Of a stretch of 64,000 bases of DNA, positions 3,010 to 51,042 are shown piece after piece. Made by a program: the position numbers and the translations under genes. The notes under the pieces were generated by a model. It ran no database searches. It was not told where the DNA came from and was given only the letters and a program-made list of their open reading frames with translations. Position 1 is the stretch's first letter. Every line of letters begins with the position of its first letter. Source of the DNA: Gloeobacter violaceus PCC 7421 (GTDB taxonomy: Bacteria; Cyanobacteriota; Cyanobacteriia; Gloeobacterales; Gloeobacteraceae); the NCBI RefSeq assembly GCF_000011385.1, contig NC_005125.1:124001-188000 (forward strand), read 5' to 3'.

Positions 3010-3669
3010 TTACTGACGGGTATAAGGCACGTACTCGCGATAGCGGTTGAGCATATAAAGGGTCGGTTGCGGCAGGGGCAGTTGCGAATCCCAAAAGAGC
3101 ACCCAGGTCTTGCCTTCGGGGTCGGGGGTGGTGCGGCTGCCGTCGGTGGTGAAGCGGCCCACGTCGCGCACGGGGGCAGGGCCGCGCACGTACTCGGCGC
3201 TGTTGTAGGCGATGCGCTCGGGCAGGCCGCTGAAGACGAACAGACCCTTGAGGACCGTCGGGTTGGTGAGCACCGATTTGAGGCGGCCCGCCCAGACCCG
3301 GGCGATGGGCAGCACCCGAGAAGTACCGTTGGGGGCGGTGTCGCGGGGGGACAGTTCGACAAGTCCCCGGTCGTTGACCAGGATGATCGCTCCGCCGTCG
3401 TTGCCGCGCACCGCTACGAATAGCTGCGGCTGGGGCGCTTCGCCCACGATGTTTGCGAAGCGCTGGAGAGCCTGCTCGACGCGCGCGGTACTGTCGGGGC
3501 CACGCAAAGTCAAAATCGTATAGCCGCCGATTTTGAGTGTCGCCGCGTCCGGCGGCGGGGGCGTCAGGACGGGAGCCGGTTCGATAGACGGCGCAGGAAC
3601 GGGTGGCTCAACCGGCGGCGGTGCCGGAGTCTGGGCCAGCAGCGGCAGGCCCAACAGCAACCACAACAT
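3010..3669 (-). CDS. Secreted Pro-rich hypothetical protein
   Basis: About 219 residues. The start is set by AAGGAG seven bases before the ATG (MLWLLLGLPLLAQ), which opens a short signal peptide. A proline-rich linker (residues about 15-50) leads to a compact domain with LKIGGYTILTLRG, RVEQALQRFANIVG and ILVNDRGLVELSPRDTA. I do not recognise the domain; the order resembles cyanobacterial periplasmic proteins of unknown function. The frame is open further upstream, but those residues lack signal-like character. The binding-protein gene follows 19 bp downstream, suggesting a two-gene envelope operon. Confidence 0.6.
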   Translation of the reverse strand: MLWLLLGLPLLAQTPAPPPVEPPVPAPSIEPAPVLTPPPPDAATLKIGGYTILTLRGPDSTARVEQALQRFANIVGEAPQPQLFVAVRGNDGGAIILVNDRGLVELSPRDTAPNGTSRVLPIARVWAGRLKSVLTNPTVLKGLFVFSGLPERIAYNSAEYVRGPAPVRDVGRFTTDGSRTTPDPEGKTWVLFWDSQLPLPQPTLYMLNRYREYVPYTRQ

Positions 3670-3838
3670 CGGGCATCTCCTTGACGGGGAACCCGACACA
3701 AGCGGTCGTGCACATCCCCAATTCAATTTGATATTCCCACAGTCCCAGTCGCGATGGCGTTGGTCGTCCCTAATCCGTACTTTGCAGATTCGACATCGCC
3801 GCCGGTCGCCGTGGCCGATGGCTCGACTCCGTTCAGTG

Positions 3839-4189
3839 CTATTCGTGGGCCAGAATGTTGATCAGGCGGCCAAACGGGTCACGCACGTAGAAACGCCGTA
3901 CCGCCCACGGCTCCCTCGTCGGGCCATATTCAACGTTCAGCCCTTTAGCGACGACCCGCTGATGGACCTCGTCAAGGTCGTCCACTTCGATCGACAGGTC
4001 CGGCACGGGAGTGCCCGATCCGCCCTCGCTGGCGATGCTGATCTGCGGCGCAGATCGACCGTTGGCAGCGAACGTCATGATCCAGCCTTGGTCCATGACC
4101 AAGTGCAATCCGAGAACGTCCGCATAGAAGGCGGCAGCATGCTCAACCTTATCGGCCGCGATGTTGGCTACGATACGCTTTACTGCCAT
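3839..4189 (-). CDS. VOC superfamily (glyoxalase-like) protein
   Basis: 116 residues with the beta-alpha-beta-beta-beta paired fold of the glyoxalase/bleomycin-resistance/dioxygenase superfamily: KRIVANIAADKVEHAAAFYADVLGL at the start, FYVRDPFGRLINILAHE at the end. The start is chosen because GGAGG precedes the ATG by five bases and because upstream residues have no homology character. The substrate cannot be told from sequence. A second VOC gene lies upstream on the same strand, 144 bp away, but the two are only distantly similar. Confidence 0.75.
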   Translation of the reverse strand: MAVKRIVANIAADKVEHAAAFYADVLGLHLVMDQGWIMTFAANGRSAPQISIASEGGSGTPVPDLSIEVDDLDEVHQRVVAKGLNVEYGPTREPWAVRRFYVRDPFGRLINILAHE

Positions 4190-4333
4190 CGGTTCCTCCA
4201 AAAGATAGGTGCAGCTCCAAGTCCGAAATGAGTAGCGGACGCACGCTATGTTCGGCCACTCGGAATCATAGCGCCACGGCGTAGGCATAGTGCTCATCTT
4301 TGTTGAGTATGGCCCACTAATTTCAACCGAAAA

Positions 4334-4687
4334 CTACGGCTGAAGCGGTTTCCAGAGACCGATAGTGTTGCCTTCGGGATCGCTCATCCAGGCGAAGTGA
4401 CCGCTGCCGGGCACTTCCGTCGGTGGGATGCAGGTCTTGCCTCCGAGAGATTCGGCTTTGTCGAGGGCAGCCTGCAGATCTTCGACTTGTATGTAAAAGG
4501 TCACGTAATTGTGGGGTTCGTGGCCGAGGGAGTTGATCATGCCCTGGATGCCCTCCTCGCTGCCGGTCCGGATAGAGACTGCCGGACCTTCGGGCAGTCC
4601 TTTCCAGCCGAACACCTGCGCAAAAAATTCGGCGGTCTTGCTGCTGTCGCGGCAGCCGATCTCGAAATAGACGACAGGGTTACCCAT
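4334..4687 (-). CDS. VOC superfamily protein
   Basis: 117 residues starting MGNPVVYFEIGCRD, with AEFFAQVFGW, YIQVEDLQAALDKAESLGGK and HFAWMSDPEGNTIGLWKP, the features of a single-domain VOC protein close to the CFP30-type hydroxylase-like group. AAGGAG lies eight bases before the ATG and decides the start. The terminal PEGNTIGLW contains the usual metal-binding Glu region. Function is unassigned beyond the superfamily. Confidence 0.77.
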   Translation of the reverse strand: MGNPVVYFEIGCRDSSKTAEFFAQVFGWKGLPEGPAVSIRTGSEEGIQGMINSLGHEPHNYVTFYIQVEDLQAALDKAESLGGKTCIPPTEVPGSGHFAWMSDPEGNTIGLWKPLQP

Positions 4688-4937
4688 CTGATCGCTCCTT
4701 TGCCTGACAAGGCGTGTCGTTCGCGGTCGCTGTCGCATTGGATTGCGACAGCAACAGACTACCACAAAATATGAACAAAAGATCACATCTAGGTGCCCAA
4801 ATTGGCGACGCTTCCTGCTGAGCCGATTAATCGGGCATAGCCTTCCGCGTGCTCGCGCAGCAGCCGTCCGGCGCGAGCGCGTCGATGACCTCTTGGTGCA
4901 AGCGGGCTGCTGAGTGCCATTCGGCTACCTTTGAAAC

Positions 4938-5441
4938 ATGAACCAGGGAGAGCCCGTGGACACTGAAACCCGCGAACGTGTCGGCTACGACGAGGACTTC
5001 CATGCCTGGGCGTTTGCGCAGGCGACGCTTTTGCGCGAAGGCCGCCTGGACAGGCTGGATCTTGAAAACCTTGCTGAGGAGTTGGAAAGCTTGGGCAGGT
5101 CTGAACGCAGAGCGCTCGAAAGCCGGTTGGAGGTGTTGATCCTGCATTTGCTCAAGTGGCAGTATCAAGCTGAAAAACGCTCCAAAAGTTGGCTGGCGAC
5201 GATCGCCGAGCAGCGCTATCGGATCTCCAGGCTTTTTCACGAAAGCCCAAGCTTGCGGCCTTTGCTGGAAGAACTGGTTCCAGTTGCTTTCATAGGGGCC
5301 ACCTTCAGCTTTGAACGCGAAACCGAACTGCCTCGCAGCCTCGTCGGCAAGAGCTGCCCGTACAGTACGACGCAGATCGTCGACGACGCATTTCTTCCGC
5401 AGGAAACGGGCGGGCCTCCCATCGAGCCGCAATCCCTTTGA
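4938..5441 (+). CDS. DUF29 family protein
   Basis: 167 residues. It has the DUF29 pattern typical of cyanobacteria and other bacteria: YDEDFHAWAFAQATLLREGR, LDLENLAEELESLGRSERRALESRLEVLILHLLKWQYQ, then RSKSWLATIAEQRYRI. The family is largely helical and of unknown function; its genes are multicopy in many cyanobacteria. No good ribosome binding site precedes the ATG. It stands alone, with a broken gene pair downstream. Confidence 0.85.
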   Translation: MNQGEPVDTETRERVGYDEDFHAWAFAQATLLREGRLDRLDLENLAEELESLGRSERRALESRLEVLILHLLKWQYQAEKRSKSWLATIAEQRYRISRLFHESPSLRPLLEELVPVAFIGATFSFERETELPRSLVGKSCPYSTTQIVDDAFLPQETGGPPIEPQSL

Positions 5442-5460
5442 GCAGGCTGCTGAAGCCAAG

Positions 5461-5652
5461 TCATCGGGGCAATTCGCGCCCGGTTCTGTCTATGCGCTTG
5501 TTGTACAGGTCGAACGTCCGCACCCGGGCTATCCCATCTTTGAAATCGCAGGCCCGGATGTACTTTGGCTCCACCACCACTTTTCCTGTGCGGTCGATGT
5601 AGCCCCACCCGGGAGAATCGATTCTCACCGCCGCCAGCCCTTCACTGAAGGC
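5461..5652 (-). pseudogene. C-terminal fragment of a WG-repeat protein
   Basis: Reading on the minus strand from about 5652 to the stop at 5461 gives FSEGLAAVRI, then GWGYIDRTGKVVVEPKYI and DGIARVRTF, one and a half repeats of the WG (KWG leptospira-type) family. Upstream of about 5652 the frame loses WG character and runs antisense to the next gene. No start or signal is present, so this is a truncated remnant. Its break point coincides with the 5' break of the divergent gene on the plus strand. Confidence 0.6.
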
Positions 5653-5696
5653 GGGGCAACCTCCAGAATCTGGTCCTCCGCGCCGACGGGCAGACG

Positions 5697-6410
5697 GTGA
5701 ACGTGGCGGTGGATGTGCTCCAAATCCATCTGCACCAGAGCGGCCGGCTGCAACTAACAGTCGAACTGCTGCTGCACGAATCCGGCCGGCGCGAGCGGCT
5801 GACCCTGGCAGCGACACCCTGCCCCGGCGAACGGGAAAGTAGCCTGTGTCTTCAGGATGTGCGCGTGCAGTTCGGCCAAATCGCGCTGGCGTTGCTTGAT
5901 CTCAAGCCTGGTGAGGACGAACTGGCGGTCGAGGCCGAGGTGCATTTCGACCCAGAATCGCGCGACGACACCAGCGCCGGGGTCGATATCCGCTCCGGTA
6001 GCCTTGCGTTTGCCCGTATCCGGCTTCCCCATGTCGAGCGTGCCCTGGCCCGCGTGCTGTTGCCGCTTGCGGGCATCAACGGTTTACTCGCCTCCCCCTG
6101 GGTACAGGGCAATTTGCAGATGCTCTCGCTACAGCTGGGGGAGCGTTCGATTGCAGGCGCAGTCGAACAACTCGCGATGCGCCTCCAACCCGGCTTGCTG
6201 GAGTTGGAAGGCATATTTTGCGAGGCGAAGGCTGCCGGGCGCACTCCTTTGAAACTCCAGGCAACCACCTGTGCGGGTAGCGGGGCGCTGAATTTCTTGC
6301 ACCTGCGCCTCGGTGCGGCCACACTCGAAATCGGCATCGAGACTTGCGAAGTGGAAGCCGGCAAGCTCACCCTTGGCCTGGCGATTCACCCCTCGCCCCC
6401 GCCGGGCTGA
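5697..6410 (+). CDS. Possible DUF2993/LmeA-like protein, 5' truncated
   Basis: The GTG at 5697 is the first possible start, but codons 5649-5696 (RRGNLQNLVLRADGQT) also look coding, and a stop at 5646-5648 closes the frame. About 237 residues of alternating beta-type sequence (DVLQIHLHQSGRLQLTVEL, HESGRRERLTLAATP) resemble the DUF2993 family of lipid-binding-type proteins, although I am not certain of the family. Later segments (VQGNLQMLSLQL, TLEIGIETCEVEAGKLTLGL) repeat the same style. The N-terminus appears lost at the junction with the WG fragment, so it may be a pseudogene. Confidence 0.5.
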   Translation: MNVAVDVLQIHLHQSGRLQLTVELLLHESGRRERLTLAATPCPGERESSLCLQDVRVQFGQIALALLDLKPGEDELAVEAEVHFDPESRDDTSAGVDIRSGSLAFARIRLPHVERALARVLLPLAGINGLLASPWVQGNLQMLSLQLGERSIAGAVEQLAMRLQPGLLELEGIFCEAKAAGRTPLKLQATTCAGSGALNFLHLRLGAATLEIGIETCEVEAGKLTLGLAIHPSPPPG

Positions 6411-44960: not shown

Positions 44961-46742
44961 TCAGTGCCACTGTTGCATCCATTCTGCGTCCGTCAACCTT
45001 TTCTTGGATTTGTAGGGTTGATAATCTTCCAGCAGTGCTTGCCGTTTGGCTTGTAGCTGAAGACGTTCCGCTTCTGTTATCCTCGATTGGGATTGTAACT
45101 GTTGGATGCGCTCAGCGGCGGTTTTCTGATGGTGGCAATGTCGATGAAGTAGCTGCTTATTTGATGAAATATTCCTTCCGCCGAATCGTTTCGGCTTCCG
45201 GTGATCCACTTCCAGCAACTCTCCATTCATGAAATACAACCCGCAGTGAGTGCACTTGCCTGTCTGGGATTTCAGCAGTCGGGCTACTTCCGCTTTTATT
45301 TGCGGATGCTGTCCTATCCGATTACTCCAGTACACCCAGTCGCCATCGTACGGGCTACGGCGTTCTTTCACCTTGACGTGCCGAGTAATCGGCCTATCTG
45401 AGTGTTGAACCAGGCGCTTAATTCCCTCCCCTTTTTGGACGGCAAAGCACCAGTTTTGCGTGCCAATCGTTAGCCAGTATTTCCTGGCCAGCCATTTCTG
45501 ACTTTGGTTGCGATGATGACTGGTTGCCCAAGCTTTCAATTGCATGTAGAGAGTCCTGTCCAGCTTCTTGAACGTGGCTCCGCTCACAACTTTAGAGAAG
45601 AAATGTGTCCATCCCCGAATTATCGGATTGAGGTGCTCAATCAGGAATGATTGAGGCTGTGCCTTATGTTTGTGGATTATTCTTCTCAGCTTTTCGGTGT
45701 GAGTCTTGATGCTCTTCTTGCTTGGTTTGATAATCGTTTTGAAGCCCAGGGGTTTGCCGCGACTATTCGTTCCTGTATGGTACTTGCCAACGGGAAATTG
45801 TCGAACGGTAAACCCCAGAAAGTCGAAACCCGGTTGCCCTTCTTCTAAAAGAAGAGTGTGAGCTATCCGTGTTTTGCTTGGCTTCAATTCCAATCCCATG
45901 CCTGCCAGCCATTCCTCCAGGACCGTCTGGCAACTTTGCACTATCTGTTGGTCTGTGTGGATACACACAAAATCGTCAGCATAGCGGATCAGTTGTGCCA
46001 TCTTGGACACCTGTTTGACTCGTTCTTCCATGCCATGTAAAGCGATATTCGCTAACAGGGGTGAAATCACGCCGCCTTGGGGTGTGCCTGTCGGTGTGGG
46101 GAATAGTTCACTACCTTCCATCACTCCTGCTTTCAGCCAGGCGCGTATTTGCCGACGGATAGCTGAGGATGTGTTCATTTTCTTGAGCAGTGCTTGCTGG
46201 TCGATGCGGTCGAAGCATTTCGCGATATCGGCATCAAGAACAAATTTGCTTTGTTGCCGTATCGCGTTGTAGATGGCTTGGAGTGCATCATGGCATGAGC
46301 GTCCTGGTCGGAACCCGTAGCTGTTTGGCTCGAAGCGAGCTTCCCATTCAGGTTCCAGGGCGAGAGTAAGCAGAGCTTGCCGCGCCCTGTCTGTCATCGT
46401 CGGGATACCAAGAGGGCGTTTTTCCTGAGTGCCGGGTTTGGCAATCCAGACCCGTCGCATTGGTTTTGCCTTCTCGCTTATTCTCAGGTTTTTGGTGAGT
46501 GCAAGTCTCGCTTTTGGGGTGAGGGATTTGACTCCATCAACCCCAGCTGTTTTCTTGCCCTGATTATCCTGAGTCACCCTTCGTACGGCAAGACATCTTG
46601 CTGACCAAGAACGTATCAGTAGTTTCTGGAGTTTACGGACTGCCTTGAAATCACCACGTTGCGAGGCTTTGAATATGCGTGTTTGCAGCTTGAATACTCT
46701 GCGTTGGATTTGACGCCAATTGAGAGAATTCCATTCCACCAT
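44961..46742 (-). CDS. ltrA: Group II intron reverse transcriptase/maturase
   Basis: About 593 residues from MVEWNSLNWRQIQRR; 11 more codons upstream are possible. RT blocks are in order: VRRVTQDNQGKKTAGVDGV (RT0), RRVWIAKPGTQEKRPLGIPT, NSYGFRPGRSCHDALQ, FVLDADIAKCFDRID, GTPQGGVISPLLANI and LIRYADDFVCI (YADD at 254-257), LKPSKTRI, FDFLGFTVRQ. Domain X follows, then an HNH endonuclease (CTHCGLYFMNGELLEVDHRK, RHCHHQKT). It splices the intron RNA and copies it into new sites. Confidence 0.95.
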   Translation of the reverse strand: MVEWNSLNWRQIQRRVFKLQTRIFKASQRGDFKAVRKLQKLLIRSWSARCLAVRRVTQDNQGKKTAGVDGVKSLTPKARLALTKNLRISEKAKPMRRVWIAKPGTQEKRPLGIPTMTDRARQALLTLALEPEWEARFEPNSYGFRPGRSCHDALQAIYNAIRQQSKFVLDADIAKCFDRIDQQALLKKMNTSSAIRRQIRAWLKAGVMEGSELFPTPTGTPQGGVISPLLANIALHGMEERVKQVSKMAQLIRYADDFVCIHTDQQIVQSCQTVLEEWLAGMGLELKPSKTRIAHTLLLEEGQPGFDFLGFTVRQFPVGKYHTGTNSRGKPLGFKTIIKPSKKSIKTHTEKLRRIIHKHKAQPQSFLIEHLNPIIRGWTHFFSKVVSGATFKKLDRTLYMQLKAWATSHHRNQSQKWLARKYWLTIGTQNWCFAVQKGEGIKRLVQHSDRPITRHVKVKERRSPYDGDWVYWSNRIGQHPQIKAEVARLLKSQTGKCTHCGLYFMNGELLEVDHRKPKRFGGRNISSNKQLLHRHCHHQKTAAERIQQLQSQSRITEAERLQLQAKRQALLEDYQPYKSKKRLTDAEWMQQWH

Positions 46743-47364
46743 CGAAGATTGCTCTCGTGTCTTGGATCTGTGCACTGCTACTGGCTCCTATTCATTCCTG
46801 GTCATCGTGCCTACGTCAGCATGTCCCTGACATTACTCAGGGCATTGGCTTTTTAGGCAATCTTTCCTGTCGCGAGCATGCGGTTGGCATCTGCTCAGGC
46901 ATCGACCGAGTCCTGAGAACTAGCAACAGGTTACTTCGTTCCGATTCACCATTGATTGAATCTGTAGGGTGATGCTCATTTGCCGGGTTTTTGTCGGGAG
47001 TACAAACAGGTCGCATGTAGAACGCCTATCCCTTATCCTTCGCCTTTTGGCTCCAGCCTGTCAGCCCAATTTGGCTGGTTAATCGTAACGGCAATTAATG
47101 CATCTTTGCTTTCGCTACCCGTGGATTCTTGCTGGGCGAGTTTCCAAGCTAGGGCTATTAGATATCGCCTTTTCATCCCGCTTTACGGATTGATGGCCAG
47201 TCGCTACCGTAGGGATGATGCTGTCACCACTGTACCTGCGGGGAGAGACTTTCACTCTCATGATGAATCAGTTGTCAAGGTGTGTTTGGAGTATGAACCT
47301 CCTTTCACTTCTTGCCAGTCATCCTTGAGATATCGCTATCCCATTTCGACTGAACGAATCGCAC

Positions 47365-48497: not shown

Positions 48498-48833
48498 CTA
48501 TCGAACAGTGACTCGCCCCTTCATAGTCGTGTGAAACTCACAGAAGTAGTTGTACACGCCCTTGTCGGGGAAAGTCAGCGTCTTGCTCTCACCGGCAAGC
48601 AGTCTGCCTGTCCCGGCAAATTTTGCTCCATCCTCCTCTGGGGTGGCGGTGTGAGGGGCGGCATCTTTGTTGAGGAAAGTCACCCGACTGCCTTTGGGAA
48701 TCACGACAGCTTCGGGGGTGAACTGGAACGATTCGATGGCAATCACGGTGGCAGGGGGCGGCGCCGGGGCGGCCAGGACCGCCGCGGGCACCGCCGCCAG
48801 TACCAGTGCCAGAGTCGGCAACGGTCGAAACAT
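48498..48833 (-). CDS. Cupredoxin (plastocyanin-like) protein
   Basis: 111 residues with a signal peptide (LALVLAAVPAAVLA). The cupredoxin fold shows as IAIESFQFTPEAVVIPKGSRVTF, NKDAAPHTATPEEDG (first copper His) and KGVYNYFCEFHTTMKGRVTV (Cys, His and Met ligands), so a complete type 1 copper site is present. It is shorter than plastocyanin and resembles the small periplasmic cupredoxins found with copper or oxidation functions. It follows the ferritin-like gene by six bases. Confidence 0.85.
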   Translation of the reverse strand: MFRPLPTLALVLAAVPAAVLAAPAPPPATVIAIESFQFTPEAVVIPKGSRVTFLNKDAAPHTATPEEDGAKFAGTGRLLAGESKTLTFPDKGVYNYFCEFHTTMKGRVTVR

Positions 48834-48839
48834 CGGGGG

Positions 48840-49451
48840 CTACACCTTCAAGATCCAGTCTTTGCGGGTCTGGGCGCTCAAGAAGGCGGCGGGCACCTCC
48901 TGCACTGTGGGCATCAGGCCGTGGAAGACCGCACGGATGGCCGTGGCGTGACCGGCCTCGGCGGGCAGAATCGAACTGGCCGCCGCTTGCAAGGCCGGGG
49001 TCTTAAGCTTGCCGAAAGCCGACTGGTAGGCGAGGGCCGCGTCGATTTCGAGGGCCAGGGCCAGCTTGGCGATATTGGCGTCGGAATCGAGCCCGCCTTC
49101 GCCCGCCTTCAGATAGGCCGACAGGTCGTAGGAATCTTTGGCGGGAGCGGGGGTGGCGCCGAGGCTCTTGATGGCGTCCGCGAGGGCAGCGCGGTGGCTT
49201 TTGTGATCTGCCTGGTTGCGCAATGCCAATTCCAGCACGGTTTTACCCACATCGGTCTTGGAGAGCTTACCGGCCGCTGCCCCGTAGGCCCAGATGGCCT
49301 GGCTTTCGAGATCGTGGGCCGCCTGCAAAATGGCCAGATCGCCTTTGTCCTGACCGAAAGCAAGCCGCGTACCCGCCATAAGGCTCAACGTTCCGGCCGC
49401 ACCGGCAAGAAGCACAGACCGGCGGGAAGCCGCGCGCATCGCATTGTCCAT
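48840..49451 (-). CDS. Tat-exported ferritin-like protein
   Basis: 203 residues. The N-terminus SRRSVLLAGAAGTLSLMAG is a twin-arginine-type signal. The mature part is a four-helix bundle of the ferritin-like/DUF4439 kind: LAILQAAHDLESQAIWAYGAA, VLELALRNQADHKSHRAALAD, IAKLALALEIDAALAYQSAF and ILPAEAGHATAIRAVFHGLM. The repeated Glu and ExxH-type positions could bind a di-metal centre. Paired with the cupredoxin, it suggests a periplasmic metal or redox function. First gene of the pair. Confidence 0.8.
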   Translation of the reverse strand: MDNAMRAASRRSVLLAGAAGTLSLMAGTRLAFGQDKGDLAILQAAHDLESQAIWAYGAAAGKLSKTDVGKTVLELALRNQADHKSHRAALADAIKSLGATPAPAKDSYDLSAYLKAGEGGLDSDANIAKLALALEIDAALAYQSAFGKLKTPALQAAASSILPAEAGHATAIRAVFHGLMPTVQEVPAAFLSAQTRKDWILKV

Positions 49452-50025: not shown

Positions 50026-50970
50026 TCAGGTGAGTTCGGGCGGCGGCGGGCACTCAAGAACCAGTCGGCGGCCGGAAGTCGGGTGCAAAAAAGACAGGCG
50101 GTGGGCGTGCAGAAAATAGCCGCCGTCGCCGGGCACCGAAGCGTCGTTGTCGAGGCGGGCAACGCCACCGGGGCCGAAGAGCGGATCGCCTACGAGGGGA
50201 TAACCGGCAGCCGCCAGATGAATACGGATCTGGTGCGGCCTGCCGGTGGAGATCGCCACCGCAAGCAGGCTGTCCGTGCATTGGCGGCGCAGAACGACAC
50301 AGTCGCTGCGGGCGGGAAGGCCGTCCGCGGCAGCGGCCCAGAGGGTACCAAGCAGCGGGTGGGGTACTTTGCCGATGGGCTGGCGGATCGTAAAGCGATC
50401 GCGCATCCCGGTACCCGAGGCGAGAGCCCGATAAAGCTTGCCGATGCGTTGCCGGCGCATCTGCTCGCTGAGGGCGGCGCGGCTGGAGTGGGTGCGGGCG
50501 AGCAGCACCAGTCCCGAGGTGCCCCGGCCCAGGCGATGAATGGGTACAGGCGGTTCCTCGCCTGCGAAGCGCCGCCTCACCTGCCACAGCAGCGTGTGCT
50601 CCAGAAAGCCGCCCCCCGGCAGCACCGGCAGCCCGCCGGGCTTGGCCACCACCAGCACCTGTTCGTCGGCATAGATGATGACGATATCGAGCGGCACCGA
50701 AGGCTCCTGCCAGGGCGGACGGCAGTAAGTGAGCACCTGGGCGGAGCGCAAAAGTTCGGTGGAGCTGGTGGACCTGTGATCGAGAAGCACCTGTCCGGTC
50801 TCGATGCGCGCCTGCCACTCGTGGTCGCCGGAGTGGCGGTAGCGCAACAGGTAATATTCGAGCACCGTCAAACCCGCGGACTCGGGGCCGATGCGGTCGC
50901 AGTAGGTCCAGCCCTGGTTCATGGGTGTCCCCGTTCCCGGATTGACAGGAACCTGGTAAACGTTTTGCAT
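50026..50970 (-). CDS. RluA-family pseudouridine synthase-like protein, catalytic Asp replaced
   Basis: 314 residues. An S4-like N-terminal part (TVLEYYLLRYRHSGDHEWQ, RIETGQVLLD) is followed by the synthase domain: VIIYADEQVLVVAKPGGLPVLPGG, PVPIHRLGRGTSGLVLLART, RIGKLYRAL and GRPHQIRIHLAAAGYPLVGDPLF. The motif normally HRLDxxTSG reads HRLGRGTSG, with Gly148 in place of the catalytic Asp. Similar Gly variants are known to me from plant organellar relatives, so this may be a distinct subgroup with a displaced nucleophile or a non-catalytic RNA-binding role. The start touches the tRNA-Glu gene. Confidence 0.8.
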   Translation of the reverse strand: MQNVYQVPVNPGTGTPMNQGWTYCDRIGPESAGLTVLEYYLLRYRHSGDHEWQARIETGQVLLDHRSTSSTELLRSAQVLTYCRPPWQEPSVPLDIVIIYADEQVLVVAKPGGLPVLPGGGFLEHTLLWQVRRRFAGEEPPVPIHRLGRGTSGLVLLARTHSSRAALSEQMRRQRIGKLYRALASGTGMRDRFTIRQPIGKVPHPLLGTLWAAAADGLPARSDCVVLRRQCTDSLLAVAISTGRPHQIRIHLAAAGYPLVGDPLFGPGGVARLDNDASVPGDGGYFLHAHRLSFLHPTSGRRLVLECPPPPELT

Positions 50971-51042
50971 ACCCCCAACCGGATTCGAACCGGTGTCGCC
51001 GCCGTGAGAGGGCGGTGTCCTAGGCCTCTAGACGATGAGGGC
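50970..51042 (-). tRNA. trnE-CTC: tRNA-Glu (anticodon CTC)
   Basis: 73 nt read on the minus strand: acceptor GCCCTCA pairs with TGGGGGT (G1-U72 as usual in cyanobacterial tRNA-Glu), D arm TCGTCTAGAGGCCTAGGACA, anticodon stem CCGCC/GGCGG with loop CTCTCAC, T arm ACCGGTTCGAATCCGGT. CCA is not encoded. Confidence 0.95.

Follow-up and report, generated by a model that had tools for sequence, protein, structure and literature searches.

The window analyzed here is a 64,000-nucleotide stretch of the Gloeobacter violaceus PCC 7421 genome (positions 124001–188000), and the feature of interest in it is a minus-strand open reading frame (ORF) at 50026–50970 that encodes an RluA-like protein without the catalytic aspartate of pseudouridine synthases. 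Counted from the first-listed ATG, the product is 314 amino acids long; residues 145–153 (50512–50538) read HRLGRGTSG, and Gly148 (codon GGC, plus-strand 50527–50529) occupies the position to which D64 of Escherichia coli RluA and D139 of RluD align, as the original prediction, made from the DNA alone, had proposed. A tRNA-Glu(CTC) gene (50970–51042) lies directly upstream on the same strand, and its last base is the A of the ATG that gives 314 amino acids. The true start is probably Met17 (50920–50922), for a protein of about 298 amino acids: the family is conserved from N18 onward (168 of 170 alignment rows), right behind Met17, which favors this codon, and a Met stands directly ahead of N18 in 50 of the 170 rows.

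The pseudouridine synthase domain (PF00849) spans residues 104–254 (50209–50661) by both profile match and AlphaFold2 model, and the profile covers the whole domain at 86.3 bits, against a cut-off of 26.8. Two pocket residues of RluA, Y96 and R165, have their equivalents in Y180 (50431–50433) and in R249, the latter within GRPHQIRIH (50218–50244), where P245 and I250 depart from the usual GRTHQIRVH. Ahead of the synthase domain, residues 17–90 (50701–50922) appear to form an S4-like N-terminal region, judging from a match to the RluD structure 2ist and from its invariant residues; Pfam S4 itself finds no match in the window protein, and is reached in 25 of the 74 rows of a mixed alignment of Gly- and Asp-bearing proteins. 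Toward the C-terminus, a PGDGGY insert (50116–50133) lies immediately before a conserved LHA strand.

The best NCBIfam match is to the RluA subfamily model TIGR00005, at 191.9 bits and thus 0.8 below its cut-off of 192.7, and the protein falls far short of the equivalog cut-offs for RluA, RluC, RluD, and TruC (RluD, 96.3 of 351 bits; RluC, 83.9 of 378). An AlphaFold2 model built from a 74-row alignment is confident, with a predicted local distance difference test score (pLDDT) of 94.4, and has the RluA/RluD fold along its entire predicted length. Its best match in the PDB is RluA (2i82; Z 25.0, root-mean-square deviation [rmsd] 2.1 over 203 residues); against full-length RluD (2ist), model residues 19–314 align with a Z of 23.8, at a large rmsd of 7.0 over 274 residues. 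By domain (PF00849) and RluA-type fold, then, this is a homolog of the RluA family, and it retains the Tyr and Arg of the pocket (Y180 and R249, in 170/170 rows); what it does not have is the catalytic Asp of HRLDxxTSG that marks RluA as an enzyme, Gly148 taking its place.

In the proteins that resemble this one (hereafter G-type, as opposed to D-type relatives with Asp), the glycine is fixed. A first alignment had Gly in 147/147 G-type rows versus Asp in 30/30 RluA-family comparators, and an extended one has Gly in all 170 G-type rows and Asp in all 35 comparators. The G-type rows came from the best 80 loci of a named-genome scan together with loci from further genome scans; eight pairs among the first 147 each represent a single gene present in two collections (by their last 200 residues, 139 are distinct), and a frame-split gene (L148) and duplicate fetches of the window and of loci L058, L061, and L078 were omitted before counting. 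All four Gly codons are used at this position (54, 39, 36, and 18 among the 147 rows), which places many rows, those with GGT or GGC, one base change away from Asp; yet Asp is seen in none. Five close pairs of G-type genes have ratios of nonsynonymous to synonymous substitution (dN/dS) of 0.13–0.32. The frame-split gene at L148 (genome G181) is broken over two frames, which may reflect recent loss of the gene or faulty assembly, and reads HRLGRFTSG.

The remainder of the active site has been kept. Residues invariant in the G-type clade and common to active enzymes are R146, Y180, G243, R244, H246, Q247, R249, H251, and L287, with R146, like Y180 and R249, the equivalent of a pocket residue (RluA R62). 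Invariant only in the G-type clade are H46, W52, R84, W87, E89, and P143, all but the last within the S4-like region. E89 (50704–50706) is Glu in every G-type row, while D-type rows mostly have Pro or Ala there. Y285 and the insert (PGDxGY, with an acid at position 282 in 167/170 rows) are nearly invariant and clade-specific, and P280 is also a clade signature. By this pattern the pocket has been retained and the nucleophile alone has been lost, while the N-terminal region and linker have become specialized.

The distribution of the gene was examined in a sample of 386 genomes of the phylum. Within the cyanobacterial class of the window, 68 of the 186 genomes sampled (its own included) have a G-type gene, and the motif, read in all 68 (L148 among them), has Gly in every one. 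The closest named relative, at 92% identity, is in Aphanocapsa lilacina HA4352-LM1 (L005), and large groups, among them the family coded f7, lack the gene. None of the 200 sampled genomes of the phylum outside this class has a G-type-looking match, as judged by score, with motifs read in a fetched subset, all of them Asp. G-type genes are also found beyond the cyanobacteria. Those at L058, L061, and L078 come from metagenome-assembled genomes (MAGs) not labelled cyanobacterial, and their flanks, read by eye, look non-cyanobacterial; two of the three belong to a single phylum. In this second phylum, which includes a MAG titled Candidatus Latescibacterota and the genomes G387 and G388, 24 of 64 genomes have the gene (283 to 446 bits), with Gly in all 24 motifs; this is too many genomes for contamination. 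In another 17 genomes of that phylum the best match scores lower, at 159 to 170 bits, and the five of these that were fetched all have Asp.

Occurrence in a third phylum is sporadic: among 296 genomes sampled, only G386 and G631 matched a degenerate pattern written for the exact motif. The contig with the G386 hit is short and belongs to a Bacteroidetes MAG, and contamination is less surely excluded there. The possibility that the G631 hit was a chance pattern match was rejected when the gene proved to be a genuine G-type protein; 97 other genomes of its order gave no G-type match at 1e-45. Restriction of the family to photosynthetic organisms was likewise considered and rejected, given the absence of any PsaA/PsaB match in G386, G387, and G388, the non-cyanobacterial flanks, and the 24/64 occurrence in the second phylum. 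A plasmid collection yielded no match at 1e-30. A phage collection yielded 38 records at 1e-10, known by similarity alone; the ten listed have 27–37% identity, and three of those ten cover at least 76% of the query.

In a tree of 61 G-type and 30 D-type rows (quick method), the G-type proteins form one side of a branch with a support of 100 in the Shimodaira-Hasegawa-like approximate likelihood ratio test (SH-aLRT) and a stem of 2.33. In a tree of 52 G-type rows from three groups, 21 of the 24 second-phylum rows lie outside the cyanobacterial set; the other three (L194, L195, and L196) adjoin the f20 cyanobacterial group, suggesting gene transfer. On present data the Asp appears to have been lost once, at the base of the G-type clade. 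The suggestion in the original prediction that such proteins might define a separate subgroup is clearly borne out by a single clade with an invariant Gly and signature residues of its own in two phyla; the best reading is that the G-type proteins are an old and selectively maintained bacterial subfamily of RluA.

Glycine variants of RluA proteins are also known from eukaryotes. A paper of 2022 (PMC8910892) described an XXHRLG-type RluA of plants and algae (AtRLUA7, AT3G52260; ZmRLUA7) as missing outside plants. HRLGRGTSG contains the HRLG motif of that type, and the two share the replacement of the catalytic Asp by Gly, wide taxonomic conservation, and presumed inactivity; they differ, in a comparison by motif only, in that the present protein is found in two bacterial phyla and rarely in a third. 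With HRLG fixed in two bacterial phyla, the plants-only statement fails for the motif. Within the literature searched, the G-type proteins are apparently an unreported bacterial branch of a variant that had been named from plants: neither HRLGRGTSG nor HRLGRG was found as a string (most subscription papers fell outside the search scope), and a limited search, mostly of open papers, on pseudouridine synthase, RluA/RluD, and cyanobacteria did not find a G-type family.

Human RPUSD3 is likewise an RluA-family protein in which Asp has become Gly, and its pseudouridylation is undetectable (PMC12716993). It is described there as a close vertebrate homolog of RPUSD4, which by that description sets it apart from the G-type proteins, and its loss of Asp was therefore probably independent. 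E. coli RluD, RluC, and RluA share with the window protein the fold, the pocket Arg, Tyr, and Arg, and (for RluC and RluD) apparently an S4-like N-terminal region; the window protein differs from them in lacking Asp64/139, in having only 25–27% identity, and in its own H46, W52, R84, W87, E89, P143, and PGDxGY insert. The RluA-like protein mt-LAF3, bound to the assembling large subunit in kinetoplastid mitoribosome assembly intermediates (7aoi, 6yxx, and 7am2), also resembles the model, at Z 18.8–19.2 but with an rmsd of 13.6–14.4 over 269–282 residues; the identity is about 20%. Asp is regarded as universal in pseudouridine synthases, and a subfamily with fixed Gly over two phyla offers a natural test of non-catalytic roles; its target should also be easier to find in bacteria than in plants.

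What might a protein of this kind do? The explanation we somewhat favor, at a little better than an even chance, is that it is an RluA pseudo-synthase without a nucleophile, which binds RNA and has a non-catalytic role, most likely in ribosome assembly. The fixation of Gly, while the pocket residues, the fold, and purifying selection all persist, argues for this explanation, as do the single clade and the normal D-type paralog (L001) kept in the window's genome. The RNA bound would be a structured one, possibly tRNA but most likely the 23S rRNA of a pre-50S particle; a uridine would be flipped or held in the empty pocket, as by RluA and RluD; the glycosidic bond would be left unbroken; and the protein would help RNA to fold or the ribosome to assemble. 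The original prediction had left three options (use of another residue, modification of nothing, or a separate subgroup), of which modification of nothing seems most likely. There are parallels for such a role, human RPUSD3 among them. SVR1 with its catalytic Asp mutated is reported still to complement the Arabidopsis mutant (PMC8910892), although a review (PMC8394491) leaves open whether SVR1 needs its activity. Inactive RsuA D102N abolishes some growth defects (PMC10525438), and METTL15 assembles mitoribosomes non-catalytically (PMC11197891).

Several points weigh against this explanation. The gene neighborhoods do not help: across 109 loci there is no conserved neighbor pointing to ribosome assembly, the most frequent family besides the gene itself being its own antisense ORFs (24 loci) and the commonest non-self family reaching 12, followed by others at 11, 9, and 9. 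The G-type gene is missing from 118 of the 186 sampled genomes of the class, a patchy occurrence indicating that the protein is not a universal assembly factor. Finally, retention of the full pocket is equally to be expected of an enzyme that takes its acid from elsewhere.

This last is the main rival, which we consider unlikely: an active pseudouridine synthase using, for example, E89 of the PPWxEP linker or D282 of the PGDxGY insert. E89 is the sole acid both invariant in the clade and specific to it, its position being almost never acidic in D-type proteins; D282, acidic in 167/170 rows, lies in a clade-specific insert beside the conserved LHA strand; and the active site is otherwise complete. 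E. coli RluA, however, apparently has a Glu in a linker of similar sequence (PPQEP), offset by two columns, which is not the nucleophile there, and E89 may therefore be structural; the pseudouridine synthases described to date, moreover, use Asp (PMC8910892). A different function is a rather improbable alternative, in which a pocket widened by Gly would bind an already modified uridine, as a pseudouridine reader, or host another reaction. The clade-specific changes P143, P245, and I250 line the motifs, and the replacement is always Gly, where a merely dead site would show varied residues; the Gly may, on the other hand, serve backbone geometry alone.

Still less probable is that the G-type protein acts with an active RluA-family partner (RluD-like, L001), as a heteromer or as a competitor, directing or limiting modification of the same RNA site. 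RluA-family enzymes are generally considered monomers, which counts against such an arrangement, and no genetic linkage to a D-type gene was seen, except to a different, opposite-strand one at three loci. Potential partners do exist: the window's genome keeps a normal D-type paralog with HRLDKDTTG, that at L001, and lower-scoring RluA-family matches, known by score alone, are present in G386, G387, and G388. For the plant proteins, the authors of PMC8910892 themselves raise the possibility of cooperation with an active partner. Sequencing error, which the original prediction had named as a possible way out, and a decaying pseudogene can both be regarded as refuted, given Gly in 170/170 rows across many genomes, purifying selection, and intact frames.

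A broader scenario can be entertained, if only tentatively and with more doubt than belief: a family of bacterial pseudo-synthases that predates plastids, holding a flipped-out uridine un-isomerized and serving either in RNA assembly or in the reading of modified rRNA, might have been inherited by plants with the chloroplast. The plant HRLG protein may well descend from that of the cyanobacterium that gave rise to chloroplasts.

Some features of the surroundings may be added. The tRNA-Glu gene upstream of the ORF was considered as a possible family feature and rejected as such, since among 60 loci scanned the arrangement is found only in the window and at L005; a divergent tRNA-Glu near the gene at L061 is taken as chance. 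At L012, L050, and L051, the right flank contains, on the minus strand, a longer, N-terminally extended D-type gene of the RluA family (HRLDQATSG), on the opposite strand to the G-type gene and within a few kilobases of it, and a fragment of a gene resembling it is found at the edge of L067. In L067, too, a single stop-free frame of 861 codons (3259–5841) encodes a G-type protein and, after it, an aspartase/fumarase-like one, possibly a fusion or an assembly artefact; at L012 the G-type and aspartase/fumarase-like genes are separate neighbors. Elsewhere in the window, by eye, a minus-strand ORF of 604 amino acids (44961–46775) resembles the reverse transcriptase/maturase of a group II intron and has an HNH-like end, and two adjoining minus-strand ORFs (48498–48833 and 48840–49451) resemble a small cupredoxin-like protein and a ferritin-like protein with a twin-arginine translocation (Tat)-like leader.
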